Below, piece by piece: positions 3,364 to 35,772 of a stretch of 35,772 bases of DNA; within the stretch, counting starts at the first letter, position 1; every line of letters starts with the position of its first letter. Under the pieces are notes generated by a model. The model did no database searches and was not told the DNA's origin. It saw nothing but the letters and a program-made list of their open reading frames with translations. The DNA is taken from IMG/VR virus record IMGVR_UViG_3300045912_000934, positions 1-35,772 of that record; one strand, 5' to 3'. Both the position numbers and the translations under genes were made by a program. The DNA is from a virus.

Positions 3364-3606
3364 CTATGCGGGCTGAAAGAAGCCGGCCGCGATCAGATCC
3401 TCGATGAAGGCCTCGGCGCTGTCGGCGCGGACATCGCTGCCGTCCCAGGCCGCACAGTTGGCCGCCATCTGCGCCATGAAGTCGGCGGCGTCGCCGTGCT
3501 CGAGGAAACTCAAGGCGCGCAGGCGGTCGACCAACTCGGCCGCCGTCGTCGCCTCGTAGACGCGGCCGTCGTCCTGGGCGCGGTATCGCATAGCGGTCGT
3601 CCTCAT
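3364..3606 (-). CDS. Small hypothetical protein
   Basis: An 80-residue acidic protein, last gene of the leftward accessory operon. Its ATG overlaps the stop of the cyclotransferase gene as ATGA, so translation is probably coupled; an internal ATG at 3591 is a possible alternative. It contains RVYEATTAAELVDRLRALSF and a C-terminal SAEAFIEDLIAAGFF. I recognise no family. No signal peptide or membrane segment is evident. Confidence 0.6.
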   Translation of the reverse strand: MRTTAMRYRAQDDGRVYEATTAAELVDRLRALSFLEHGDAADFMAQMAANCAAWDGSDVRADSAEAFIEDLIAAGFFQPA

Positions 3607-4115
3607 TCGCACGCCTGAGCCACCCCTGCCGCCCACGGCGGCGAAACGGTGTCGCCGTCGAACCACGATGCCCGCTCGGCACGCTTGGCGAGGCTGATCG
3701 CGTCGGCCTGCGCCGCGCGCAGCGGCGAGAGATCATCGAAGCCGAAGTCGCGGTAGCCGTCGGCGATCGAAGCGAGATAGCCGTCGGACGCCGGGCCATA
3801 GTCGCGCTGGCGCGGGCCGTTCATCACGTAGGCCATCGGCTTCGCCCGCTTGCCGTTGGGGAGCGCTACCACAATGCGCTCCTTGACGTAGAGATGCGGG
3901 AAGCCCTCGTAGGCATCGAGTGCCCGCTCACAGGCCCGGGTGATCTCCCACAGCGCCGCCGGCGTCACGGCTTGCGCATCCGGCTCGATGTCGGCGACGC
4001 GCTTCATGACGAGGCGCCAGCCCTCAAGCCGGATGGCGGCGAGTGGCCGGGCCTTGGGACAGCGCCTGGCCATCAGACAGCGGTTCATGTTCGAGCCGTA
4101 GGCGACGTAGAGCAT
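3603..4115 (-). CDS. Gamma-glutamylcyclotransferase-like (AIG2/GGCT fold) protein
   Basis: A 170-residue protein with the GGCT signature YGSNM at residues 6-10 and the expected acidic residue in AYEGFP (E70), the position of the catalytic Glu in characterised cyclotransferases. The family releases 5-oxoproline from gamma-glutamyl amines or peptides. It lies 17 bases downstream of the amidoligase gene on the same strand. Amidoligases are known to be paired with GGCT-fold proteins in phage and bacterial gene neighbourhoods, where one makes and the other may break gamma-glutamyl or similar amide links. The actual substrate cannot be read from the sequence. Confidence 0.85.
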   Translation of the reverse strand: MLYVAYGSNMNRCLMARRCPKARPLAAIRLEGWRLVMKRVADIEPDAQAVTPAALWEITRACERALDAYEGFPHLYVKERIVVALPNGKRAKPMAYVMNGPRQRDYGPASDGYLASIADGYRDFGFDDLSPLRAAQADAISLAKRAERASWFDGDTVSPPWAAGVAQACE

Positions 4116-4132
4116 CGTTGGCTGGCCTCCTC

Positions 4133-5110
4133 TTAGGCGACGCGGCGCTCGCGGCGCGCGAAGTATTGGGCGCGGCGGCGCAGGTAGGCCGCGGTCTCGT
4201 CATCGATGCCGGCCATCACGTGGTCGGCGGCGTCGACCGCGCGGTTGATGATCGCATAAACCGTGGTGCCGTTCTCGCGGCGGCTGACCACCTCGAGGCC
4301 GCGCTTGCGCAGCTGGGTGGAGATCGCGGCCCGTAAGGTATGCCGCTGCCAGCCGGTCGCGGCGATCAGGTCGTCGATGCTGGCCCCACCCATCCGGCTC
4401 AGCATGGTGACCACGGTGCCGATTTTGCCGTCGGCGGGGATCAGCGCGGCGGTATTGGTGCCGGCGGCGACGCGGCGGCTCTCCTCGATGAAGCCGAGGC
4501 CGAAGCGGATCCAGGCCAGTGCTTTCTCGGCCTCGACCGTGCCGCCGTGCTGGCGGAACTCGATGGTGCGGTGGCGGCGCCACGCTTCCAGGTTGACCTT
4601 GGCGTAGCGGGTGCCGAAGGCATCGCAGGCTTCGGCGGTCGAGCGGCTGGCCAGCTTCTGCATCACGCTGGCGCTCTGCAGGAAGGTGCGAACGCTGCGG
4701 CAGAAGCGGTTGGCGTTGCCGCGGCGGCTTGGCGCCATCCAGGCGTCGATGTCGTCTTCGAACTTGGCGTAGCGGCGCACCACCGTGGCGATCTCGGCCG
4801 CCGAGAGGTCGGAAGCGCCAAAGTGCGCGTGCAAGCCTGTTCTCTTGTCGACTCTGGCCCCAGCGGCGTTCAGCGCGTCGAGGACTGCCTCCGCTGTGCT
4901 GAGGCCCTGTTCACCCTTGAGCACCGGGCTCACCACCTCGAAGCCATCGGGAACCGAGGCATCGCTCACGATCTTCCAGTGGCCGCGGGCCTCGTGGTTG
5001 TAGCCTTCGATGCGGGCGTCGATGCCGGCGTTCCTAAGCGCCATCTCTGCCGCCTGTTTGGTAATGCCGAAGGCCTCGATCTCGATTCCGAAAGTCCTGT
5101 TGCTCATCAT
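4133..5110 (-). CDS. Amidoligase-family enzyme fused to a DUF3489 DNA-binding-like domain
   Basis: A 325-residue protein. Residues 1-225 match the glutamine-synthetase-fold amidoligase family (Amidoligase_2): FGIEIEAFG at 7-15 supplies the first acidic metal/ATP ligands, TGLHAHFGA at 91-99 the conserved His pair, and TIEFRQHGGT at 182-191 the conserved EFR motif. Such enzymes are predicted to form amide bonds between carboxylates and amines using ATP. Residues about 230-290 form a DUF3489 winged-helix-like module (DLIAATGWQRHTLRAAIS), an unusual partner that suggests DNA association or autoregulation. A GGAG ribosome site lies eight bases before the ATG at 5110. A second ATG follows directly at 5107. 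Confidence 0.85.
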   Translation of the reverse strand: MMSNRTFGIEIEAFGITKQAAEMALRNAGIDARIEGYNHEARGHWKIVSDASVPDGFEVVSPVLKGEQGLSTAEAVLDALNAAGARVDKRTGLHAHFGASDLSAAEIATVVRRYAKFEDDIDAWMAPSRRGNANRFCRSVRTFLQSASVMQKLASRSTAEACDAFGTRYAKVNLEAWRRHRTIEFRQHGGTVEAEKALAWIRFGLGFIEESRRVAAGTNTAALIPADGKIGTVVTMLSRMGGASIDDLIAATGWQRHTLRAAISTQLRKRGLEVVSRRENGTTVYAIINRAVDAADHVMAGIDDETAAYLRRRAQYFARRERRVA

Positions 5111-5505: not shown

Positions 5506-6075
5506 TCACTCGGCGATGCGGTACGTGCGGCTGCCGCCATCACCCTTCTCCGAGGTGATGGTGAGCCCGAGCTTCTTCTTCAGCGCGCCGGCCATCGCCC
5601 CGCGGACGGTGTGGCGGGCCCAGTTCAGGGCCTCGGCGATCTGCTCGACGGTGGCGCCCTCCGGCCGCTTGAGCATCTCGATCATCCGCGCCTGTTTGCT
5701 GTCGGGGCGAGTTCCGGCGCGCGGCCGCGGCGTGACCGCGAGCGGCCCGGTCCCCGGGCTGTGACCCGGGGATCGCATGAGGTACGTTTCCGCCGGTCCG
5801 TCCGGGGCCGGTTCCGCCGGCGCCTCGGTGACAAAGCCGGCGGGCCCGCATTCCTCGTCGCGCAGCGCGGCGCGGAAGGCGGCGGCGCTCAGCTGGCCGC
5901 TCAACAGACCGTCGGCGGCATCGAAGACGTCGGCGGCGGCAAGCCCGATCTGGGCGGCGGCGCGTTCGATCGCCTTGATCGCGTTGCGCTTGGTGTTGGG
6001 GTTGCGGCGCTCGTTCTCCAGGGCGCTCAGGATCTGCGCCAGCTGGGCGAGGCTGTAGGTGGTCTCGGTGGTCAT
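5506..6075 (-). CDS. DUF3489 domain protein
   Basis: A 189-residue protein. The last 60 residues form a typical DUF3489 domain: SKQARMIEMLKRPEGATVEQ, then NWARHTVRGAM and a final SRTYRI. The fold is a helix-turn-helix-like module thought to bind DNA. The N-terminal half is helical, followed by a Pro/Gly-rich linker at about 85-125. It may regulate the leftward operon, given an inverted-repeat cluster just upstream of its start. A second DUF3489 copy is fused to the amidoligase two genes downstream. Confidence 0.85.
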   Translation of the reverse strand: MTTETTYSLAQLAQILSALENERRNPNTKRNAIKAIERAAAQIGLAAADVFDAADGLLSGQLSAAAFRAALRDEECGPAGFVTEAPAEPAPDGPAETYLMRSPGHSPGTGPLAVTPRPRAGTRPDSKQARMIEMLKRPEGATVEQIAEALNWARHTVRGAMAGALKKKLGLTITSEKGDGGSRTYRIAE

Positions 6076-14814: not shown

Positions 14815-15624
14815 TTAATCGGCCATCACTCTCGCCGCGATCAACATTTTGAGCTCGGCCTCCGCACCCGTTGCGCCATCGAACCTTCGGTGGCGCACCG
14901 AAGCATGACGAAGGGACGGATGCGTTAGCGCCACAACCGTAGTTCGGAAGCCGGGCAAGCCAGCAAATGAGACCTTGCGCTGGACAGGGCCGGAGGCATC
15001 AAGATGCTTCAGGCCCTGCCGCATCTGCCAAGGCGCCAATTCCGGCGACATCGGGGCAACGAGGCAGGGCACACGGACGCCAAGCGTTAGCACCAAACGG
15101 GGGCGTTGAACCTCCAGCTGGCGCAGTAAGAAGCGGCGGCAATGTTCCAGATAGGGCTTGCTCTTCGATCCCGGAAAGACACCGGTTGTGATCGTACCTT
15201 GCCTCAGCCCCATGAAGAAGTTCGTGAAGAAGCAGTCGTCTATTCGGATCGCAGCTTGTTCAAGCAACTTCAGAATGTTGCGCCACGTGGGCTGAGCGTG
15301 GTTCTCACGGTTTCGCTTCAGTGATCGGCGGTACTCGATCTCCGAGTGGAAGTCATGGCCAAGAACCATCACGCCTCCGAACGGAAAACTCGGCAGCTCA
15401 CCTCCGTGTGCGGAAACAAACAGTCCGTATCCGCCAGGAAAGAAAGCAGTGCCTCGGATCGCCTCCGGCACGGGCAGTACACCAAGCGGTTGATCGCCTG
15501 GATAGGCATGCTCAGCCCACAGCTGTTGCGCTGGATGTTGAGCCGCCCCGATATTCGTCGCGAGGGCGCGGGCGGTTGAGACAAGCGGGCGACCAGCGCC
15601 CACGACCTGCCTGTCAGGGTTCAT
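14815..15624 (-). CDS. Uracil-DNA glycosylase superfamily protein
   Basis: A 269-residue protein taken from ATG 15624; the upstream frame reaches into the next tail gene and is not used. Superfamily motifs are a strand-loop GGVMVLGHDFHS at 83-94 in the position of motif 1, CFFTNFFMGLRQG at 131-143, RPRLVLTLGVRVP at 174-186, and LTHPSLRHA with H235, matching the HPS motif of the base-flipping site. The motif-1 residues differ from classical family 4 or 1 enzymes, so glycosylase activity is not assured. The gene faces against the surrounding late operon and its base composition looks less GC-rich than its neighbours. Repair, defence or anti-defence roles are all possible. Confidence 0.65.
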   Translation of the reverse strand: MNPDRQVVGAGRPLVSTARALATNIGAAQHPAQQLWAEHAYPGDQPLGVLPVPEAIRGTAFFPGGYGLFVSAHGGELPSFPFGGVMVLGHDFHSEIEYRRSLKRNRENHAQPTWRNILKLLEQAAIRIDDCFFTNFFMGLRQGTITTGVFPGSKSKPYLEHCRRFLLRQLEVQRPRLVLTLGVRVPCLVAPMSPELAPWQMRQGLKHLDASGPVQRKVSFAGLPGFRTTVVALTHPSLRHASVRHRRFDGATGAEAELKMLIAARVMAD

Positions 15625-15748
15625 GCTTCTCGTCGCCTTCTCGTTGTTGGCCGATCTTGCACGGATCGATTGACTTTCTCGGACTGGCTGCAGATGGCGA
15701 GCCGGCTGAGACCGCCACCATTGGGAGAGCAAGGATACGAGGTAAGAG

Positions 15749-16180
15749 ATGACGCTTCGTGAACGGGTTCTGGTGGCGCTCTTCACCCGGCTACAGACCA
15801 TCCCGCTGGCTGCTGTCCGCCGCAACGAGGCGTTGCCGCAGGCGGTGCCGGCCGGCGGGCTCGTTATCCTGCGCGACGGCGATGCGGGCGAGCCGGATGT
15901 GACGCTGAACCCGCGTGCCGAGTTCTACAGCCATCGTGCCGAGATCGAGGCGTTCGTGACGCAGCCGGCCGGCGGCGGGGGCGAGGCATTGCTCGACAGT
16001 TTGCTGACGGAGATCGGCACCGCGTTGGCCTTCGATCGCAGTCTCGGCGGTCTCGCCGAAAACCTCACCTGGAGCGCACCCGAGACGTCGGTTCTGGCGA
16101 TCGAGGGCGCCGCACCCATCCTCACCGCACGTATCACGGTCACCATCGAGTATCTGGTCAGCGATCCGCTGGCCGCCTGA
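15749..16180 (+). CDS. Tail terminator-like protein (lambda gpU position)
   Basis: A 143-residue protein starting TLRERVLVALFTRLQTIP, with a central hydrophobic strand (GGLVILRDGD), HRAEIEAFVTQPAGGGGEAL, and a C-terminal AAPILTARITVTIEYLVS. The layout fits the small alpha/beta tail-terminator proteins that cap the tail tube; related alphaproteobacterial proteins have been misnamed acyl-CoA transferase. It directly precedes the tube gene, as U precedes V in lambda. Confidence 0.75.
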   Translation: MTLRERVLVALFTRLQTIPLAAVRRNEALPQAVPAGGLVILRDGDAGEPDVTLNPRAEFYSHRAEIEAFVTQPAGGGGEALLDSLLTEIGTALAFDRSLGGLAENLTWSAPETSVLAIEGAAPILTARITVTIEYLVSDPLAA

Positions 16181-17504: not shown

Positions 17505-18548
17505 TCACAGTTCGGGTTTCGGCGTGGTGACCGTGCTCGGCGGCAGAATCGGGTACGTGACCTTTGGTTGCTCGCCGGTCAGCGATTGTAGAAATGCCGT
17601 GATCTTGGCGATCTCATCGTCGGTCAAGTGTTCTCCCAGCTGACTCGTCGCCATCACCCCCACCGCCTGTTTGAGGTCCCATGATTGGCCACTATGGAAA
17701 TAGGGCGGCGTCAACTCGATGTTTCGCAACGTCGGAACCTTGAAAACGTATTCGTCGTCCGCCGTCTTGGTCACCTGGAAGCGGCCTTTGTCGGCGGGAG
17801 GCAACATGTCGGCGCCAGGCTTTTCAACCACGCCGAAGGGCGCGTACATCCCGCCGCCGACGTTGATGCCGTTGTGGCAACTGGCGCAGCCCTTTTCGAC
17901 AAACAGCTTCAGCCCATCTTTCTGCTCGGCGGTGAGCGCGTTCGCGTCACCCCGCAGGTACCTGTCAAAGGGTGCGTTGGGGGTGATGAGCGTCGCCTCG
18001 AATGCGGCGATCGCCTTTTCGACGTTCTGGATGCTGATCGGATCCTTTTCGCCCCGGAAGGCCGCATCGAACATCGGCTTGTAGCCGGGAATGCCCTTCA
18101 GCATCTCGATCGCGTGCTGGTGCGTGATCGCCATCTCGATCGGGTTCTGGATCGGGCCACCCGCCTGTTCCTTCAGATCGGCGGCGCGGCCGTCCCAGAA
18201 CTGCGCCGTGTTGAAGACGGAGTTCAGCACCGTTGGCGCGTTGCGATTGCCTTTCTGCGACCTGTGCCCGATCGAGACCGGCAGCATATCGACGCCGCCG
18301 AGGCCGATCTGATGGCAGGTATTGCAACTGATGTTGTGGCTCTCCGACAGCCGCGGATCAAAATAGAGCGCCTTGCCCAGTTCGACCATGGCAGGCGTCG
18401 CGAGGACATCCTTCACGGCCGGCGGCTTATCGGGGATCGGTTGGAAGAGCCCTTGCGCCTCTTTCATCATGGGATCTTCTGCGCCCCACGCTGCCGTCCA
18501 AGCGATTGTCGCCGACGCAAGGGCCAGTGCCGCTGCCAGTGTCCGCAT
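17505..18548 (-). CDS. Diheme cytochrome c peroxidase (CcpA/MauG family)
   Basis: A 347-residue periplasmic enzyme with an N-terminal signal peptide that probably ends near WGA at 21-23. There are two CxxCH haem sites: CNTCH at 75-79 and CASCH at 221-225. Other family markers are LGKALYFDPRLS at 58-69, the FWDGRAADLKEQAGGPI segment and TPPYFHSG at 280-287, with M299 a candidate axial ligand. It reduces hydrogen peroxide to water using electrons from small c-type donors. It follows the cytochrome b gene by 17 bases, so the two are one leftward operon. It lies inside a phage tail operon, which is unexpected. Confidence 0.93.
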   Translation of the reverse strand: MRTLAAALALASATIAWTAAWGAEDPMMKEAQGLFQPIPDKPPAVKDVLATPAMVELGKALYFDPRLSESHNISCNTCHQIGLGGVDMLPVSIGHRSQKGNRNAPTVLNSVFNTAQFWDGRAADLKEQAGGPIQNPIEMAITHQHAIEMLKGIPGYKPMFDAAFRGEKDPISIQNVEKAIAAFEATLITPNAPFDRYLRGDANALTAEQKDGLKLFVEKGCASCHNGINVGGGMYAPFGVVEKPGADMLPPADKGRFQVTKTADDEYVFKVPTLRNIELTPPYFHSGQSWDLKQAVGVMATSQLGEHLTDDEIAKITAFLQSLTGEQPKVTYPILPPSTVTTPKPEL

Positions 18549-18565: not shown

Positions 18566-19333
18566 CTACTCGTCGTGTTCCTGGGTCTCTTCACGATGAT
18601 CCGCCTTCGCTGATGCCAAAGCGGCAAAATCGGTTTTCGCAAACAGAAACGCGCCAACCACAGCAACAAGGCCGGCCGCAACGAACATCCGCCACGATGG
18701 TGCGATCGGCTTCTCGGCTGACGCGCTGGTGGCGTCAAGCTGCTTTGCGCCAGAAATCATTGCTGAAACGAGGTTCTCGCCGGTGAGCCACCAATCCGCA
18801 AGAACGCCGCAGACATGAACGACAGCAAGAATCAGAATGAGGTTAGCGAAAACCTCATGCACTTCGCCGAGGCCCTTGCTGCCGGGCGCCCAGACCGTGG
18901 AAAAGAACAACCCCGCGGCGCCATCCTTCTCCCCAGAGAAGAGGCCGGTCAGCACTGTGAGCGAGAGGACGATGAGCATGAGGACCACCATCCACCCGCC
19001 CAGAGGATTGTGGCCGACGTATCGCGGCGGATCGAGGGCGAGCAATCGCCGGACATAGTCACCGACGACCTGCCGGCCATAGACGAAATCGCCGAAGCGG
19101 GAGCGCGGGCTGCCGATCACGCCCCAGATCAGGCGGAACAACAGCAACAGCGCAACCCCGTAGCCCGAGACGGTGTGGACGACGAACAGCCATCCGTCTT
19201 CGCCGCCGGTAACGTAGCTGACAGCCACGAACAGCACCAGTAGCCAGTGAAAGGCTCGCGTCGGGAAATCCCAAACTGGAACAGCGCGGTGACCTGTCAC
19301 CAGGACCTCTCCATCCGCCACGTGGCGGAGCAT
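18566..19333 (-). CDS. Cytochrome b561-type membrane protein
   Basis: A 255-residue protein with four membrane helices (about 27-42, 53-72, 114-132, 160-180) and a fifth hydrophobic segment at 215-232. VWDFPTRAFHW at 20-30 is the signature of the bacterial cytochrome b561 / Ni-Fe hydrogenase b-subunit family. H29, H53, H159 and H173 are likely axial ligands to two b haems. It probably moves electrons from quinol to the periplasm, and its partner is plausibly the peroxidase encoded next. The extended polar C-terminus is unusual. Confidence 0.85.
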   Translation of the reverse strand: MLRHVADGEVLVTGHRAVPVWDFPTRAFHWLLVLFVAVSYVTGGEDGWLFVVHTVSGYGVALLLLFRLIWGVIGSPRSRFGDFVYGRQVVGDYVRRLLALDPPRYVGHNPLGGWMVVLMLIVLSLTVLTGLFSGEKDGAAGLFFSTVWAPGSKGLGEVHEVFANLILILAVVHVCGVLADWWLTGENLVSAMISGAKQLDATSASAEKPIAPSWRMFVAAGLVAVVGAFLFAKTDFAALASAKADHREETQEHDE

Positions 19334-20456: not shown

Positions 20457-20786
20457 TCATGTCCCGGAGCGCGGCCCGAACAAGATGATCCCGGCGCCGA
20501 TCAGGGAGACCATAGCGCCGAGAGTATCCCAGCGATCCGGACGCAGGCCTTCGACCGCCCATAACCAGACAAGCGAAGCCACGATGTAGACGCCGCCGTA
20601 AGCGGCAAAGGCGCGACCGGCAGCTTCGACCTGAACCAGCGTCAGACAGTAGGCGAACAGGGCGAGCGAGAGCATGCCGGGGACGATCCACCACGCCGAT
20701 TTGTCCAAACGCAGCCATGCCCAGAAACTGAAGCAGCCGGCGATCTCGGCGATCGCTGCGATGACGTATGCCAGCAGTGACCTCAC
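20457..20786 (-). CDS. ynfA: YnfA family (UPF0060) membrane protein
   Basis: A 109-residue protein with four predicted membrane helices and the YnfA signatures [14 protein letters not shown] near residue 14, [20 protein letters not shown] at 57-76, and a C-terminal AGIILFGPR. YnfA relatives are small, SMR-like membrane proteins and some have been linked to drug efflux. The start is a GTG at 20786. It is transcribed against the late operon, between the chaperone and tape measure genes, and is 81 bases from the latter. It has no evident role in tail assembly. Confidence 0.9.
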
Positions 20787-20867: not shown

Positions 20868-23717
20868 ATGGCTGACCGTTCCCTTGCCATTCGCCTTGCC
20901 GTCATCGACGGTGGCAAGGTGAAGGCCGAGTTGCGCGATGTCGGCGACACGGGAAGCCGCTCGCTGAAGCGGATCGAGGATGCGGCGCGGCCGGCGTCGC
21001 GCGCGCTGCAGGCGCTCGACGGCGTCGCGGGCGAGGTGCGCGGCGGGCTCGAAGCGATGAGCGGCCGGCTGGGTGCGGTGGGATCGGGGCTTGCCCGGCT
21101 GGGACCGATCGGGCTTGCCGCCGGTGCAGCGCTGGCCGGCATCGGCATCGCCGTGGGCAAGGGCATCGAGGAGGCGGCGAAGGCCGATCAATCCTACCGC
21201 CGGCTGGAGGCGGTGCTGAAGGCAACAGGTTTCGCCTCGGGCCTGACGGCGAAGGAAATCGCCCAGTTCGCCGATGGCATCGAAGCCTCGACGCTGGCCA
21301 CCGCCGAAGGCGTCGAAGATGCCGCCGCGATCCTCGCCACCTTCCGCTCGGTCTCGGGCGAGACGTTCACCCGGGCGCTGACGCTGGCGCAGGACATGGC
21401 GGCGGTGTTCGGTCAGGACCTGTCGTCGGCGGCAACCCAGCTGGGCAAGGCGCTGGAAGACCCGATCGACGGGCTCACCGCGCTGCGCCGGGTTGGCATC
21501 TCGTTCTCCGACAGCCAGAAGGAGCTTATCAAAACGCTGGTCGAGACCGGCCAGACGGCGGACGCGCAGCGGGTCATCCTCGATGCGCTGGAGGGGCAGG
21601 TGGGCGGCGCCGGGGCGGCGGAAGCGGGCGGCCTTACCGGTGCCACCAACCGGTTACAGGACGCCTGGGGCAATCTGCTGGAAGCGATCGGCCGCACGCC
21701 GGCCGTCACCGGCATCGCCCAGGGCGCGCTCAATCTGCTGTCCGGCGCCATCGAGAGGCTGACGAGGGCGTTCGAAGAGGACTCGATCTCCCAGCAGATA
21801 GAGGCGGCGAAAGCCCGGCTCACACAGGCCCGCGACGAGCTTTCGCGCCTGGAAACGGCCGGGCCGGGCACGCCGCTGCTCGGCCTGCGCTTCGATCTCG
21901 ACGCGCAGCGGAGCCGCGTCGCCGCGCTGGAAAAGGAGCTGGAGGCGCTCACCCGCATCGGCGAGGCGGAAGCGAAAGCTACGGAAGCCGAGAAAGCGCG
22001 CGCCGAAGCGGGCCGCCGGGCGGCGGAAGCGGAGCGGCGGACGGAGGCGCTCGCCAGCCAGAGCCGCGAGATCGACAAGGCGCTGGAGCGGCTGGCGACG
22101 CCGGCGGAGAAGATCGCGGCGGTCAACCGCGAGCTCGCCGAGATGAAGAAGCGGCTCGAAGCATTGCGCGCACCCGACAAGTCCAATGCCGGCGAGATCG
22201 ATAGTGCCCTTCGCAAAGCCGAGGAACTCGCCCGCCGGCAGATCGCCGCACTCAAGGGTGCCGGCGAAGGCAAAGGCGCGGACCTGGATACGGCCCGGGA
22301 GCGACTGCAGGACTATGCGAACAAGCTGGTCGAACGCGCCGCCGCCGAGGGCATCGATCTGAAGGTGACCTCGCTGGTCCGCTCGCGCGAGCAGCAGCAG
22401 CGGCTCTACGACGCCTGGCTCGCCCGCGCCAAGACGGGCCTGCCGGCGGCGCCGCCGGGGAATTCCAAGCACGAGCAGGGGCTCGCCTTCGATGTCGCAA
22501 TCCAGGGCGGCGGTTCACCGGAGCAGTGGCAGCGGCTGGGCCGGATCGGCAAGTCGATGGGCCTGCGCTGGGGCGGCGACTTCGCGCGCTCGGATCCGGT
22601 GCACTTCGAGATCCCCACCGAAGCAGCAGCCACCCGCGCCGCGGAGGCGGCCGAACGCGCCTACGAGGCGAACCGCGAGGTGATCGAACGGCTCGCCCGC
22701 GACCTTGCCACCTTCGGCGACGAGCGGCAGCGGTTCGTCGATCAGGCGCTCTCCAGGCTGTCGGAAGGCGCGACGGCCGAGCAGCGGGCGGAAGTGGAAC
22801 GGCTGGCGAACAGCCTCTACGACGAACGGGAAGCCCGCGAACGGCTGGCCGAAACGATGCGCCAGGAGGAGCAGCTGCGCGCCGAAGGCACGCGGCTGAT
22901 CGAGGCGACGCGCACCCCGGCGGAGCAGCTGGCCGACACCATCGCCCACCTCGACGAGCTGATGCGGGCCGGCGCCATCGACGCCGAAACGCACGGCCGT
23001 GCCCTGGCGGACGCGTACGGGCAGGCCGAGGATGCCGCCGATCGGGCGCTCCGCGCCAGCCGCGACTGGCAGGACGGTGTTGTCCGCGGCCTGCGCGACT
23101 ATGCCGCCGAGGCGACGGACGCCGCATCGCACGCCGAGCAGGTGATGGGCAACGCTTTTCAGGGGATGGAGGATGCGCTCGTCCAGTTCGTGCAGACCGG
23201 CAAGCTCGACTTCCGCTCGCTCGTCGACTCGATCATGGCCGACCTGATGCGGATGGCGATCCGCGAGAGCATCACCGGTCCGCTCGCCGGCTTGCTCAGC
23301 GGTGGCGGTGGGGCGGCAGCCGGAGCGGCGGGTGGGACTTCCGGCGGCGGGCTGTTCGGCGGTCTCGGAACCTTTCTCGCCGGGCTGTTTCACGAGGGCG
23401 GCATTGCGGGCGACACGGGCGTGCGCTCGCGCATGGTCGATCCGGCGATCTTTCTCGCCGCCCCCCGCTACCACACCGGCGGCATCGCCGGCCTGCAGCC
23501 GGACGAGATCCCGGCCATTCTCAAGCGCGGCGAGGCGGTGCTGACGGAAAAGCAGGTGGCGGCGATGGGCGAGCAAGGCAAAGTTGGCGACGGCGGCCGT
23601 CCGGTGACCGTCGTCATGAACATCACCACCCCCGATGCCGGCGGCTTCCGCCGGAGTCAGGGGCAGATCGCCGCCGAGGCGGCCCGCGCCATGGAGCGCG
23701 CGCGGCGGAACCTGTGA
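20868..23717 (+). CDS. Tail tape measure protein with M15 peptidase domain
   Basis: A 949-residue protein. Residues 1-290 resemble tape-measure N-terminal regions, including a hydrophobic stretch (GPIGLAAGAALAGIGIAVG). Coiled-coil segments span about 305-440 and 590-760. Residues about 475-583 form an M15/VanY-like peptidase: SKHEQGLAFDV (H535, D542) and DPVHFEI (H579) supply the zinc ligands in the standard spacing order. A Gly-rich hydrophobic segment lies near 805-845, before the usual C-terminal NITTPDAGGFRRSQGQIAAE. The protein sets tail length, and the peptidase would open the peptidoglycan during DNA entry. Confidence 0.92.
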   Translation: MADRSLAIRLAVIDGGKVKAELRDVGDTGSRSLKRIEDAARPASRALQALDGVAGEVRGGLEAMSGRLGAVGSGLARLGPIGLAAGAALAGIGIAVGKGIEEAAKADQSYRRLEAVLKATGFASGLTAKEIAQFADGIEASTLATAEGVEDAAAILATFRSVSGETFTRALTLAQDMAAVFGQDLSSAATQLGKALEDPIDGLTALRRVGISFSDSQKELIKTLVETGQTADAQRVILDALEGQVGGAGAAEAGGLTGATNRLQDAWGNLLEAIGRTPAVTGIAQGALNLLSGAIERLTRAFEEDSISQQIEAAKARLTQARDELSRLETAGPGTPLLGLRFDLDAQRSRVAALEKELEALTRIGEAEAKATEAEKARAEAGRRAAEAERRTEALASQSREIDKALERLATPAEKIAAVNRELAEMKKRLEALRAPDKSNAGEIDSALRKAEELARRQIAALKGAGEGKGADLDTARERLQDYANKLVERAAAEGIDLKVTSLVRSREQQQRLYDAWLARAKTGLPAAPPGNSKHEQGLAFDVAIQGGGSPEQWQRLGRIGKSMGLRWGGDFARSDPVHFEIPTEAAATRAAEAAERAYEANREVIERLARDLATFGDERQRFVDQALSRLSEGATAEQRAEVERLANSLYDEREARERLAETMRQEEQLRAEGTRLIEATRTPAEQLADTIAHLDELMRAGAIDAETHGRALADAYGQAEDAADRALRASRDWQDGVVRGLRDYAAEATDAASHAEQVMGNAFQGMEDALVQFVQTGKLDFRSLVDSIMADLMRMAIRESITGPLAGLLSGGGGAAAGAAGGTSGGGLFGGLGTFLAGLFHEGGIAGDTGVRSRMVDPAIFLAAPRYHTGGIAGLQPDEIPAILKRGEAVLTEKQVAAMGEQGKVGDGGRPVTVVMNITTPDAGGFRRSQGQIAAEAARAMERARRNL

Positions 23718-23723
23718 GCGGCG

Positions 23724-24326
23724 ATGGCATCGTTTCACGAAGTGCAGTTCCCGCCGGATATCGCCTATGGCGCGGCAGGTGGGCCCGGCTACTCGACGTC
23801 GGTGATCACCACCGTCGCCGGCTACGAGAAGCGCAATGCCAACTGGGCGGCGGCGCGGGGACGGTGGAACGTGGCGCAGGGGCTGAAGAACCGTGAGCAG
23901 GTGGCGAACCTCATCGCCTTCTTCCGTGCCCGCAAGGGCCGCGCCTACGGCTTCCGCTTCAAGGACTGGACCGATTTTGCGGCGCTGGCGCAGCCGATCG
24001 GTACCGGCGACGGGGCGACGAAGACCTTCCCCCTGGTCAAGCACTACGCCTCGGGCGGCATCACCGAGACCCGCACGATCACCAAGCCGGTGGCCGGCAC
24101 GGTGAAGATCTCCGTCAACGGCACGCCGCAGGCGTCGGGCTGGAGCGTTAACACGGCGACGGGGGTGGTGACGTTCACGTCCGCGCCGGCCAATGGTGCC
24201 GTCATCACCGCCGACTTCGAGTTCGACGTGCCCGCCCGGTTCGACACCGATCAGATGGATATTACCATCGAGACCTACGAGCTCGGCCGCTGGGGCCAGA
24301 TCCCAATCGTCGAGATCCGCGGCTAA
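23724..24326 (+). CDS. DUF2460 tail tip protein (distal tail, GTA-type)
   Basis: A 200-residue protein with the DUF2460 signature: FHEVQFPPDIAYGAAGGPGY at the N-terminus, REQVANLIAFFRARKGRAYG with FRFKDWTDF in the middle, and a C-terminal FDTDQMDITIETYELGRWG and IPIVEIRG. The family is the distal tail component of alphaproteobacterial gene transfer agents and related siphoviruses, joining tube to tip. Its TAA overlaps the TAG of the opposing ferredoxin gene by four bases. Confidence 0.92.
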   Translation: MASFHEVQFPPDIAYGAAGGPGYSTSVITTVAGYEKRNANWAAARGRWNVAQGLKNREQVANLIAFFRARKGRAYGFRFKDWTDFAALAQPIGTGDGATKTFPLVKHYASGGITETRTITKPVAGTVKISVNGTPQASGWSVNTATGVVTFTSAPANGAVITADFEFDVPARFDTDQMDITIETYELGRWGQIPIVEIRG

Positions 24327-24769
24327 CGGCTGCCGAGGTCGCTCTTGAAGTAGACGACGATCTCCTCGTCGCCGAGCTCGTACTGACACGCGAGCCGGAC
24401 GTCCGGCGGAACCCCGCGCCGCTCGGCCGCCTCGATGTCGTGCGCGGTGAGCATACGCATCGTCTGCAGCAGGAACTTCTCATTCTCGGTGAGTGGCGCA
24501 ACCGGCCGTTCGCCGACGGCAACGGTGTCGACGTGGACTAGGCAGGCACCGCAGTCGCCGGCCTCGCAATTGAACAGGATGGGAACGCCATAGTCCTTGG
24601 CGACCGAGAGCAGCGTCCGCCGCTCACCGGGTGCCACGTCGATGGTGACCGTCTTGTCCACGCCCGATGCGGCGAAGCGGATGATCGCCACGGCTTTTCT
24701 TTCCGCCCTTTCCTTGACGCGCGCCGCCACTCTCCCCGCCCCACGTTCATCGTTCAAGTCTAATGCCAT
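24323..24769 (-). CDS. [2Fe-2S] ferredoxin resembling Shethna protein II (FeSII)
   Basis: A 148-residue protein with a [2Fe-2S] motif C68-x4-C-x2-C76 in FNCEAGDCGACLVHV and the fourth ligand C128 in RLACQYEL. The order RTLLSVAKDYGVP, cluster loop, LTENEKFLL, VPPDVRLACQ and IVVYF follows the Azotobacter FeSII (Shethna II) layout, a protein that shields nitrogenase from oxygen by forming an inactive complex. That role is known for the family, not shown here. The first 26 residues have no match, so GTG 24691 is an alternative start. The gene is inserted flush and antisense between two tail genes, overlapping both: its stop overlaps the DUF2460 stop and its ATG overlaps the DUF2163 ATG within CCATGG. 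Confidence 0.85.
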   Translation of the reverse strand: MALDLNDERGAGRVAARVKERAERKAVAIIRFAASGVDKTVTIDVAPGERRTLLSVAKDYGVPILFNCEAGDCGACLVHVDTVAVGERPVAPLTENEKFLLQTMRMLTAHDIEAAERRGVPPDVRLACQYELGDEEIVVYFKSDLGSR

Positions 24770-26360
24770 GGCCAAGTCCATCTCTTCCGCCCTTGCCGCG
24801 CATCTCGCCGGTGAGGTGACGACGCTCGCCACCTGCTGGCGGGTGACGCGCAAGGACGGCCGGGAGTTCTTCTTCACCGATCATGACCGCGACCTGGCGT
24901 TCGATGGCAACCTCTACCTCGCCTCCTCCGGCTACTCGCGCTCGGCGATCGCGAATGACGCCGGCATGGCCGTCGACAACCTCGACGTCGAGGGCGTGCT
25001 CGATCACGAGCAGATCTCCGAACAGGACCTGCGGGCGGGGCTGTTCGATCACGCCGAGGTCCATGTCTTCCTCGTCAACTGGTCCGACCTCGCCCAAGGC
25101 AAGCTCAGGCTGCGCCGCGGCTGGTTCGGCGAGGTGCACCTCACCGATCAGGGCCTGTTCCGCACCGAACTGCGCGGGATGACCCAGGCGCTCTCCGTGC
25201 GCATCGGCGAGCTGTACAGCCCCGAGTGCCGCGCCGATCTCGGCGATCCCCGCTGCCGGGTGCCGATCGAGGCGCCGGTGGTCGCCCGCGGCACGTCGTA
25301 TGCTGCCAGCGATCGTGTGCGCGTGCCGACGGCGACCATGGGTGTAGCGACGGTCGCGGTGCCGTTCGTCAACGCCGGCTTCGATGCCGGCAGCTTAAGC
25401 GGTTGGACCGTCGTCTCCGGGTCGGCCTCGGCGAAGACGGCGAACTCGCCGCTCGTGCCGCATGCCGGCAGCCACTTCCTCGAGGGCAACAGCGTCGCTG
25501 CGTTCGAAGTGCTGCAGACCGTCGACATGACCGGCTTGATCGATGCGAACCAGGCCGATGCCGGCGCTTACCTCGTCTCCTTCGCCTGCCAGCGGGCGAA
25601 CGGCGCCACCGACACCGCAGACCAAGGCCGGGTGATCGTCGACCTGCTCGACGCCGCGGGCGCCGTCCTGGCAACCATTCTCGATACCGGCCCGGAAAGC
25701 TTCGACCCGGCCGGGCTTTGGCATCTGCGAGCCGTCGCCTCGGCCGCCGTGCCCGCCGGCACGCGCAAGATCCGAGTCCGCTTCCTCGGCCAGCGCGTCA
25801 ACGGCAGCGTCTGCAATGCCGCGCTCGACACGGTGTCGGCCAGCTTCACCAATCCCGCAGCACCGCTCAAGGGCTCCGCCGTCTACGAGAACCGCCTTTA
25901 CCGCTGCATCACCGCCGGCACCACCGCCGCCGAGCAGCCGGCGTATGACACGACGATCGGTGCCGAGACCACCGATGGCACGGCGGTGTTCGTCGCCGAG
26001 AACGCCTGGTCCCGCGCCGGCACCGTCACCGAAGTGCTCGACCGTGTCCAGTTCACCGCCGCGATCGACGAGCCGCGCGCTGCGGACGGCTGGTTCGACG
26101 GCGGCGTGCTGACGTGGGAAACGGGCGACAATGCCGGCCGGGCAATCGAGGTGAAGTCTTGGGCGCAGGCTTCGGGACAGATCACGCTGTTCCTGCCGCC
26201 GGGCTATCCGATCCGGCCCGGTGACGTCTTCCGTGTCCATCCCGGCTGCGACAAGCGCCTCGACACCTGCGTCACGCGTTTCGCCAACGTGCTGAACTTC
26301 CGCGGCGAGCCCTACGTGCCCGGCCAGGACGAGATGATGAAGTACCCAGATGCCAAGTAG
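24768..26360 (+). CDS. DUF2163 tail tip protein with an inserted carbohydrate-binding-like domain
   Basis: A 530-residue protein, much longer than the roughly 300-residue family. Residues 1-190 are DUF2163-like (LATCWRVTRKDGREFFFTDH, then SPECRADLGDPRC), and the C-terminal part resumes with ADGWFDGGVLTWETGDNAGR at 439-458 and HPGCDKRLDTCVTRFANV near the end. Between lies a beta-sandwich-like insert at about 200-362 (NAGFDAGSLSGWTVVSG at its start), followed by a small module at 373-413 (YENRLYRCITAGTTAAEQPA). The insert resembles the later tail gene at 32041. The ATG at 24768 is used because MAKSISSALAAHLAG is the family start; the frame is open upstream but overlaps the ferredoxin. Confidence 0.88.
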   Translation: MAKSISSALAAHLAGEVTTLATCWRVTRKDGREFFFTDHDRDLAFDGNLYLASSGYSRSAIANDAGMAVDNLDVEGVLDHEQISEQDLRAGLFDHAEVHVFLVNWSDLAQGKLRLRRGWFGEVHLTDQGLFRTELRGMTQALSVRIGELYSPECRADLGDPRCRVPIEAPVVARGTSYAASDRVRVPTATMGVATVAVPFVNAGFDAGSLSGWTVVSGSASAKTANSPLVPHAGSHFLEGNSVAAFEVLQTVDMTGLIDANQADAGAYLVSFACQRANGATDTADQGRVIVDLLDAAGAVLATILDTGPESFDPAGLWHLRAVASAAVPAGTRKIRVRFLGQRVNGSVCNAALDTVSASFTNPAAPLKGSAVYENRLYRCITAGTTAAEQPAYDTTIGAETTDGTAVFVAENAWSRAGTVTEVLDRVQFTAAIDEPRAADGWFDGGVLTWETGDNAGRAIEVKSWAQASGQITLFLPPGYPIRPGDVFRVHPGCDKRLDTCVTRFANVLNFRGEPYVPGQDEMMKYPDAK

Positions 26361-34291: not shown

Positions 34292-35275
34292 TTATTCTGC
34301 TGCAATACATGAAACGGGTTCCCGGGTTACGCTCCGCACAATGGCTTCCATAACCGGCGGGCACACGCCGTTACCTATCAGCTTGATCCGATCACGCCGC
34401 GTTCCGAAAGGCAGGCATAAATGATCACCAAAACCCATGGCTCGCTTCAGCTCTGGAACCTGAAGCATTCGAAGCATCGGTGTTCGCCCCCTCCAAGTGA
34501 CGAGACCGAAACGATCGAGCGTTGTCAACGTTCGAAGGGGGCGGTCAAGAGGCTGCCAGCCACCGCTGCCGTCCGACCCGTAATAGACTATGAGAAAGGG
34601 CTTGCCCTTGCCAAGCTCTTCCATGGCGCGCTCTGCCCTGGCCAGAGTGTCCGATGCGCGGCGGGCGGAGTAAAGGGGACTGGATTGCCATGGGCCATCA
34701 AATTGAACCACGTCTGCTGCCGTTGGAACCCTGCGAAGCACTCTGGTAGGTTTCTCCACGTCAGCAGGCGTGACTTCGCGATCGCAGAGAACGAAGAGGC
34801 GTCGGCGCGTCTGTGGAACGCCGAAGTTGAAGGCATCAAGGATTTGAGGACGGACGTTGTATCCCAGGGCCTCAAGATCGCTGATCAGCGGACTGTATCC
34901 GTGCCAGCTGCGCATCTGCACGACATTCTCAAGGACAATCCAGCGCGGCTTCAATTGACGGGCAAAATTGATGACGTAGTTGGCCGTTCGTCTGCTGTCT
35001 TCGTCGCGCGGTCGGCTGCCCTTGGCGCAGGTGTGGTTCGTGCACTCGGGAGAGGCGAGGATCAAGTCGACGCTGCCGACATCACCGAGGAGGGACGGGC
35101 AAGAGCTCTCATCAAGGGTGGCGGTAATGACCTTGGCGCCGGGGAAATTATGCTTATAGGTCTCGACAGCAAGGCGCCATGCGTCGACGGCGCAGACAAT
35201 CTCGGCACCTGCGTTGCGTGCGCCCCAACTGCTTCCGCCAACGCCGCAGAAAAGATCCAACACCCTGATTTTCAT
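34292..35275 (-). CDS. DNA cytosine-C5 methyltransferase
   Basis: A 327-residue methyltransferase with motif I LDLFCGVGG at 6-14, motif IV LASPECTNHT with the catalytic Cys78 in PEC (PPC is more usual, but the PEC form is known in a phage subgroup), motif VI ENV at 116-118, motif VIII QTRRRLFVL near 155, and motif X IGNGVCPPV near the C-terminus. It modifies cytosine at carbon 5. Its ATG shares a base with the stop of the vsr gene, so the two are co-transcribed leftward. The target site cannot be read from the sequence. Confidence 0.93.
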   Translation of the reverse strand: MKIRVLDLFCGVGGSSWGARNAGAEIVCAVDAWRLAVETYKHNFPGAKVITATLDESSCPSLLGDVGSVDLILASPECTNHTCAKGSRPRDEDSRRTANYVINFARQLKPRWIVLENVVQMRSWHGYSPLISDLEALGYNVRPQILDAFNFGVPQTRRRLFVLCDREVTPADVEKPTRVLRRVPTAADVVQFDGPWQSSPLYSARRASDTLARAERAMEELGKGKPFLIVYYGSDGSGGWQPLDRPLRTLTTLDRFGLVTWRGRTPMLRMLQVPELKRAMGFGDHLCLPFGTRRDRIKLIGNGVCPPVMEAIVRSVTREPVSCIAAE

Positions 35276-35772
35276 TATTCTTGTTTACCAGGTTCCCCAA
35301 TCTCTGGCGAGGCAGGAATGGCGCACGCCTTGTCTTTTCCAAGCAGCCTGACGACCCTTGCAACGCAGACATCAATGTCTGCCGCCACTTTATGCTCCCA
35401 GAGACGAACGACCTTCCAACCCATTTGTCGCAAACGACGATGGTTTCGAGCATCCCGACGGCGGTTGCCATCGATCTTGGCCTCCCATTCTTCGGAAAGC
35501 TTGTCCCGCCATTCCGGGAAGCGCCAGCCGTGCCAGAAGTCACCGTCAACGAAAACCGCGACCTTCTCCTGTCGGAATACGAAATCAGGCCGTCCGGGCA
35601 GGTCGCCTGCGTGGCTCTCCCACTCCAGGCCCTGCGCTGCCAGCGCCGCCGCCATCGTCTGCTCGGGGCCGGTGTTCTTTCCCTTGATCCGAGCCATGAC
35701 CGCGCTGCGCATCTCGGGAGACATGAAGTCGCCCTTGTGCCGCCGCGGTTTGGATGAAGGGATGCCGACCAT
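35275..35772 (-). CDS. vsr: Very short patch repair endonuclease (Vsr)
   Basis: A 165-residue protein with the Vsr core: RSAVMARIKGKNTGPEQTM near the start, LPGRPDFVF at 59-66 with the catalytic Asp63, DGDFWHGW at 76-83, then the basic NRRRDARNHRRLRQMGWK and VVRLWEHKV. Vsr nicks T-G mismatches produced when 5-methylcytosine deaminates. The Cys/His zinc residues around the E. coli FWHHHHC segment are not conserved here. It ends on the start of the dcm-type gene. The first Met is at the window edge, so the gene may start upstream or at M17 (35724). Confidence 0.92.
   Translation of the reverse strand: MVGIPSSKPRRHKGDFMSPEMRSAVMARIKGKNTGPEQTMAAALAAQGLEWESHAGDLPGRPDFVFRQEKVAVFVDGDFWHGWRFPEWRDKLSEEWEAKIDGNRRRDARNHRRLRQMGWKVVRLWEHKVAADIDVCVARVVRLLGKDKACAIPASPEIGEPGKQE

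Follow-up and report, generated by a model that had tools for sequence, protein, structure and literature searches.

A strongly diverged FeSII-family ferredoxin gene carried as antisense cargo in the tail operon of a tailed phage

Phage cargo genes are known for photosynthesis, sulphur and carbon metabolism, and the locus described here raises the question of whether such cargo may also reach nitrogen fixation. Between two tail genes of a tailed phage, on the opposite strand, lies an open reading frame (ORF) resembling Shethna protein II (FeSII), the ferredoxin that protects nitrogenase from oxygen in Azotobacter. The initial annotation of this DNA had described it as slotted flush into the tail operon with overlaps on both sides. 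We asked whether the gene is what it seems, how it sits among its neighbours, what its family does in bacteria and what it might do for a phage.

The ferredoxin ORF and its family

The window (the whole 35,772-nt stretch that was analysed) is a 35.8-kb linear virus record of a tailed, lambda/GTA-like phage. Its head part comprises small and large terminase, lambda-type portal, S49 protease, D-type decoration protein and E-type capsid, followed by head-tail attachment, tail tube and tape-measure genes, a GTA-like tail-tip set (Rcc01695/TIGR02217, TIGR02218 hub, NlpC/P60, Rcc01698-like), and then holin and lysozyme; no nif genes were found in the window. The ferredoxin gene is convergent with that for the DUF2460/TIGR02217 distal tail protein of the Rcc01695 family (23724..24326, plus strand) and divergent from that for the DUF2163/TIGR02218 baseplate hub protein (24768..26360, plus strand). 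Elsewhere in the window, the tape-measure protein (20868-23717, plus strand) has a VanY/M15 D,D-carboxypeptidase-like domain embedded at residues about 477-582, and the right end of the record (34292-35772, minus strand) encodes a C5 cytosine methyltransferase whose gene overlaps that of a Vsr-type endonuclease. Upstream of the terminase, an Amidoligase-2 with a C-terminal DUF3489 (3603-5110, minus strand) adjoins an AIG2-like gamma-glutamyl cyclotransferase, and another DUF3489 protein is encoded at 5506-6075; the group possibly forms a peptide-conjugate system.

The intact minus-strand Fer2 ORF (Pfam Fer2, E 5.5e-9) ends at 24323 between the two tail genes, as initially described, and its stop codon (TAG, 24325-24323) shares two bases with that of DUF2460 (TAA, 24324-24326). 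The proposed flush fit thus holds at this end, by a stop-stop overlap of 2 bp, and fails at the other, where an ATG shared with DUF2163 had been assumed. The downstream start that the initial annotation had named as weighing against its own overlap was found: an in-frame GTG at 24691, preceded by GCGGAAAGAAAAGCC with an SD-like GGAAAG 7 nt upstream, is the probable start of a 122-aa product (24323..24691, minus strand) that has the exact length of Azotobacter FeSII and whose N-terminus (MAIIRF...) aligns from residue 1 with the MANVTF and MATIYF starts of relatives. The 26 codons above this GTG, which extend the ORF to the ATG at 24769, had no match to anything. One relative of the phage (L179) likewise has an uninterrupted antisense frame across the 5' part of DUF2163, though a different gene occupies the junction, and the extension to 24769 therefore belongs to the tail gene; the long ORF is probably a by-product of this GC-rich gene, its 26 upstream codons untranslated. 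Given the better GTG start, the N-terminal alignment and the L179 frame, we rejected the overlap of the two ATG codons as a real coupling. A start shared with DUF2163 is very probably spurious, and the start at 24691 leaves a 76-nt leader (24692..24767, minus strand) between FeSII and DUF2163.

To place the protein, we compared it by phmmer with all PDB chains, revealing Azotobacter FeSII as its only significant matches (2.6e-18, 3.3e-17 and 1.7e-15, against 1.1e-3 for the next-best ferredoxin). A loop of unusual length between the third and fourth cysteine is a feature of the FeSII type. In the alignment the phage cysteines fall at 42, 47, 50 and 102, giving the spacing C-x4-C-x2-C-x51-C that 74 of 81 relatives share, and the cysteines of A. 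vinelandii FeSII are given at 42, 47, 50 and 102 (PMC3045800). An AlphaFold2 model (pLDDT 76.6) has as its best PDB fold match FeSII in the MoFeP:FeP:FeSII filament (9cu1_N, TM 0.83, rmsd 1.8), and the 14 best of 601 fold matches are all FeSII chains; because the alignment given to the model was made of FeSII relatives and leans toward FeSII, this match is consistent rather than independent evidence. Judged from its sequence, the ORF is a real, strongly diverged member of the FeSII/FdxD family, so that the FeSII layout first proposed is borne out by match strength, cysteine geometry and length.

Cyanophages offer a precedent for a phage-encoded [2Fe-2S] ferredoxin (P-SSM2, 6vjv), a protein that we take to be plant-type and to serve photosynthetic electron transfer, and that differs in fold (TM only 0.50 to the phage FeSII model). 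The phage protein agrees with FeSII of A. vinelandii and A. beijerinckii in its 122 aa, cysteine spacing, N-loop, lid helix and best PDB match, and differs in its 34% identity, in the non-conservation of K14/K15 and H55, and in lying within a tail operon with a protective function that is putative. It likewise resembles alphaproteobacterial Shethna-type ferredoxins of the FdxD kind in its N-terminus, in its 34-43% identity (to the alphaproteobacterial relatives aligned, a set without the Rhodobacter capsulatus FdxD sequence) and in having V/T at K14/K15 as most of them do; unlike it, their genes are chromosomal, sometimes adjoin nif and often have a sigma-54/NifA-type promoter.

A removable gene at a recurrent cargo site

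The fit between the tail genes had been judged hard to produce by random insertion, and relatives of the phage, which are prophages of Alphaproteobacteria in both NifD-positive and NifD-negative genomes, speak against this. The four closest prophages (genome G146 holds two of them, G135 and G091 one each) share the gene order of the window phage and have a DUF2460 that is 76-77% identical, and in them the two tail genes run into each other in an ATGA overlap, without FeSII and without room for a gene; the empty junction in relatives takes the form of an ATGA/GTGA overlap. We compared 85 related phage loci that encode both tail proteins: the gap is 20 bp or less in 77 and holds an insert in 8, and FeSII or the other cargo proteins of the window were found at none of the 85, where contigs around DUF2163 span about 4 kb. 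Unrelated cargo occupies the same place in two relatives, namely a sense thermonuclease of staphylococcal-nuclease type (L001:5895-6428, plus strand) and an antisense ORF of 357 aa that has a hydrophobic stretch, belongs to no known Pfam family and ends near the DUF2460 stop (L179:2938-4011, minus strand). The DUF2460/DUF2163 junction is a recurrent cargo site, and FeSII is a moron, removable cargo lying antisense within the tail operon, an extra gene amid structural genes that is missing from otherwise syntenic relatives. With the ATG overlap very probably unreal and the gene removable, the suggestion that overlaps on both sides couple the evolution of the three genes loses its support. As with phage morons and lysogenic conversion genes, a single antisense cargo gene stands amid morphogenesis genes and is absent in relatives; unlike them, no sigma-70 promoter or terminator was recognised around FeSII. 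One of the closest prophages resides in a genome (G091, of the order of Zavarzinia sp. STE_95) with NifD and its own FeSII; the genomes holding the other three have neither NifD nor FeSII.

Further antisense cargo accompanies FeSII. A di-haem cytochrome c peroxidase (CCP_MauG; 17505..18548, minus strand), absent from related prophages and with both CxxCH haem motifs intact, has a cytochrome b561 gene (18566..19333, minus strand) 17 bp upstream; the two probably form one operon, and together they would constitute a peroxidase fed by quinol. The searches found no relatives of the pair in viruses, and the peroxidase is at most 66% identical to alphaproteobacterial proteins, next to which b561 is not encoded. 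A YnfA/UPF0060 small membrane protein (20457..20786, minus strand) lies just before the tape-measure gene, and a UDG-superfamily-like protein (14815..15825, minus strand; a weak match below the Pfam cut-off), whose GC3 of 0.65 is the lowest among the genes measured, lies between head-tail genes. The UDG-like, b561-peroxidase and YnfA inserts are all missing in the four closest prophages. We considered whether FeSII had been captured from a single nif locus jointly with b561 and the peroxidase, and rejected this, with b561, peroxidase or YnfA in 0 of 80 chromosomal FeSII neighbourhoods. A search for FNR/FixK boxes near the cargo genes gave nothing convincing.

Beyond these relatives, we found no FeSII in IMG/VR (2.9 million contigs in pattern-based scans), none in INPHARED (50,697 records) and no FeSII-like fold in BFVD, three collections that, as searched here, possibly omit the window's own genome and near copies; a literature search found phage FeSII unreported, in keeping with the initial view of a phage-borne FeSII as new. 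In IMG/VR the protein as query gave no match, and the sole match with the alignment (L127) was discarded as a 25-residue chance match in no ferredoxin-like ORF. Phage FeSII is thus known from one sequence, with no further phage copy from which selection at the junction could be read, and its single occurrence and absence from all 85 comparable relatives are what one would expect of a captured host gene that brings no benefit and is heading for loss. Such a neutral passenger is nonetheless highly improbable: the frame and all cluster ligands are intact despite extreme divergence, and the GC3 of 0.86 is that of the phage backbone (0.85-0.92; other cargo 0.65-0.79), which marks the gene as compositionally settled and, with the intact frame and ligands, argues for long residence under selection.

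Ties to nitrogenase and divergence of the phage member

Whether a nitrogenase-related role may be considered at all depends on the family. Several of 80 genomic FeSII loci lie inside nif clusters, and the only FeSII relative in 72,556 plasmids belongs to Methylococcus sp. EFPC2, where nifK and nifE flank it. NifD scored above its curated cut-off in 40 of the 49 carrier genomes searched and occurred in 7 of 8 further strong-match genomes of a phylum-wide sample; an even sample of 385 Alphaproteobacteria had FeSII in 7 and NifD in 13, with all 7 carriers NifD-positive (P = 7.3e-12). A sigma-54 site (at least 9/11, within 300 nt upstream) precedes 46 of 81 FeSII genes versus 21 of 405 control stretches. 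The family follows nitrogen fixation and is restricted to diazotrophs. FdxD of Rhodobacter capsulatus, called Shethna ferredoxin, is NifA-dependent and has been assigned to O2 protection of Mo-nitrogenase (PMC6925177), and cryo-EM has revealed nitrogenase proteins held by FeSII in inactive yet O2-protected states (PMC12585515). A second FeSII copy in one genome (G396, locus L123) was considered as a prophage gene and dismissed, its surroundings being ordinary chromosomal ORFs with no gene of the window phage and no nif nearby. Alphaproteobacterial FeSII proteins of about 300 aa (L016-L066, e.g., L032:8001-8882) are fused to a C-terminal rubrerythrin-like domain and group together on one side of a branch with good support (96/92); they would be nitrogenase shields with a peroxide/O2 domain of their own.

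Upstream of the phage gene, we looked for the -24/-12 consensus TGGCAC-N5-TTGC and for the NifA upstream activator sequence (UAS) TGT-N10-ACA. The leader begins with a degenerate sigma-54-like element, TGGCATTAGACTTGAA, at 24768-24753 on the minus strand, 77 nt from the GTG, a distance that fits that of the sites in relatives (median 87 nt, range 46-178). The element matches 9/11 of the consensus, and no other exact TGGCAY-N5-TTG occurs in the window. Its -12 GC is missing, its score on a PWM built from the relatives' own sites is 6.2 (member median 17.7), its rank is only 31st of 71,514, and no NifA UAS was found near it. For want of the -12 GC and on this rank, we rejected it as a sigma-54 promoter for phage FeSII; it is possibly a relic.

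The phage protein is also set apart by its divergence. In the tree it falls outside all cellular FeSII clades on a branch of 3.4 changes per site (median 0.06), which may reflect either a true sister position or a long-branch effect; a place in the tree does not define function, and homology at the family level stands, though we assign the protein to no known subclade. It has the family residue at 28 of the 45 positions where conservation reaches 90% or more, compared with 39 in the lowest other member, and the 17 lost are scattered over all regions of the protein. It keeps 19 of 22 invariant positions, including all cluster ligands, the lid-helix residues T68, E71 and L75, and the PP..RLACQ motif, and it retains the FeSII-specific long N-loop. 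K14 and K15, the nitrogenase-binding lysines of A. vinelandii (Lou 1999, as cited in PMC3045800), are V and T in the phage protein; these are also the commonest states among the relatives examined (V in 18/37, T in 26/37), so that the loss is non-discriminating and the lysines are not definitive of the wider family.

Such divergence bears on a second possibility, that the protein derives from FeSII and has been repurposed as a general low-potential [2Fe-2S] electron carrier that no longer binds nitrogenase and instead serves, for example, a different redox enzyme, whether from the host or among the cargo. The lone long branch, the retention of only 28 of 45 residues and the degenerate sigma-54-like site, with no convincing nif-type promoter found, keep such repurposing in play, as does the b561-peroxidase redox cargo in the same phage. 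We nevertheless consider it somewhat unlikely, since the long N-loop, T68/E71/L75 and PP..RLACQ, needless for a simple carrier, are kept together with most invariant positions, and since the family occurs only in diazotrophs.

A putative action on nitrogenase

We favour, at a probability of about 0.6, the reading that the phage protein acts as FeSII does on the nitrogenase of a diazotrophic host, shielding and thereby silencing the enzyme under O2 or redox stress. The initial suggestion of nitrogenase protection stands as a family-level link through sequence, cysteine geometry, fold and NifD co-occurrence; for the divergent phage protein itself we infer cluster binding, dimerisation, redox-switched nitrogenase binding, a diazotrophic host and expression in the lysogen. 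The phage protein would be a [2Fe-2S] homodimer whose cluster is oxidised under O2 stress, upon which it would lock the host's MoFe and Fe proteins in a complex that is inactive and resists O2, and would let them go after the stress. The phage could benefit through lysogenic conversion, a diazotrophic host gaining O2 tolerance, or through nitrogenase being turned off.

This last benefit would suffice by itself if the protein served at infection or induction to park nitrogenase in an inactive state, saving ATP and reductant rather than protecting the enzyme. The complex with FeSII has no catalytic activity (PMC11301756, PMC12585515), which makes every FeSII also an inhibitor, and the gene sits within the late tail region. 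Being antisense to the late operon, however, it would not be co-transcribed with the late genes, and its divergence gives no hint of a constitutively active, redox-independent form, leaving a pure off switch improbable. Since nitrogenase in the complex is protected and inactive at once, a shield and an off switch would amount to one binding act that only timing separates.

A literature search found no phage cargo gene acting on nitrogenase itself. Taken more broadly, and only as a tentative possibility, a temperate phage may here manipulate nitrogenase directly, its FeSII binding the enzyme and parking it shielded and inactive upon O2 stress or induction as part of a redox cargo set with b561 and peroxidase, and so adapting diazotrophic lysogens to air or freeing ATP and reductant. 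A phage FeSII of this kind would tie virus infection to the timing and place of nitrogen fixation in air-exposed habitats. As a diverged natural shield protein, it would also help in learning which residues are required for conformational protection, a question of present use in nitrogenase engineering.
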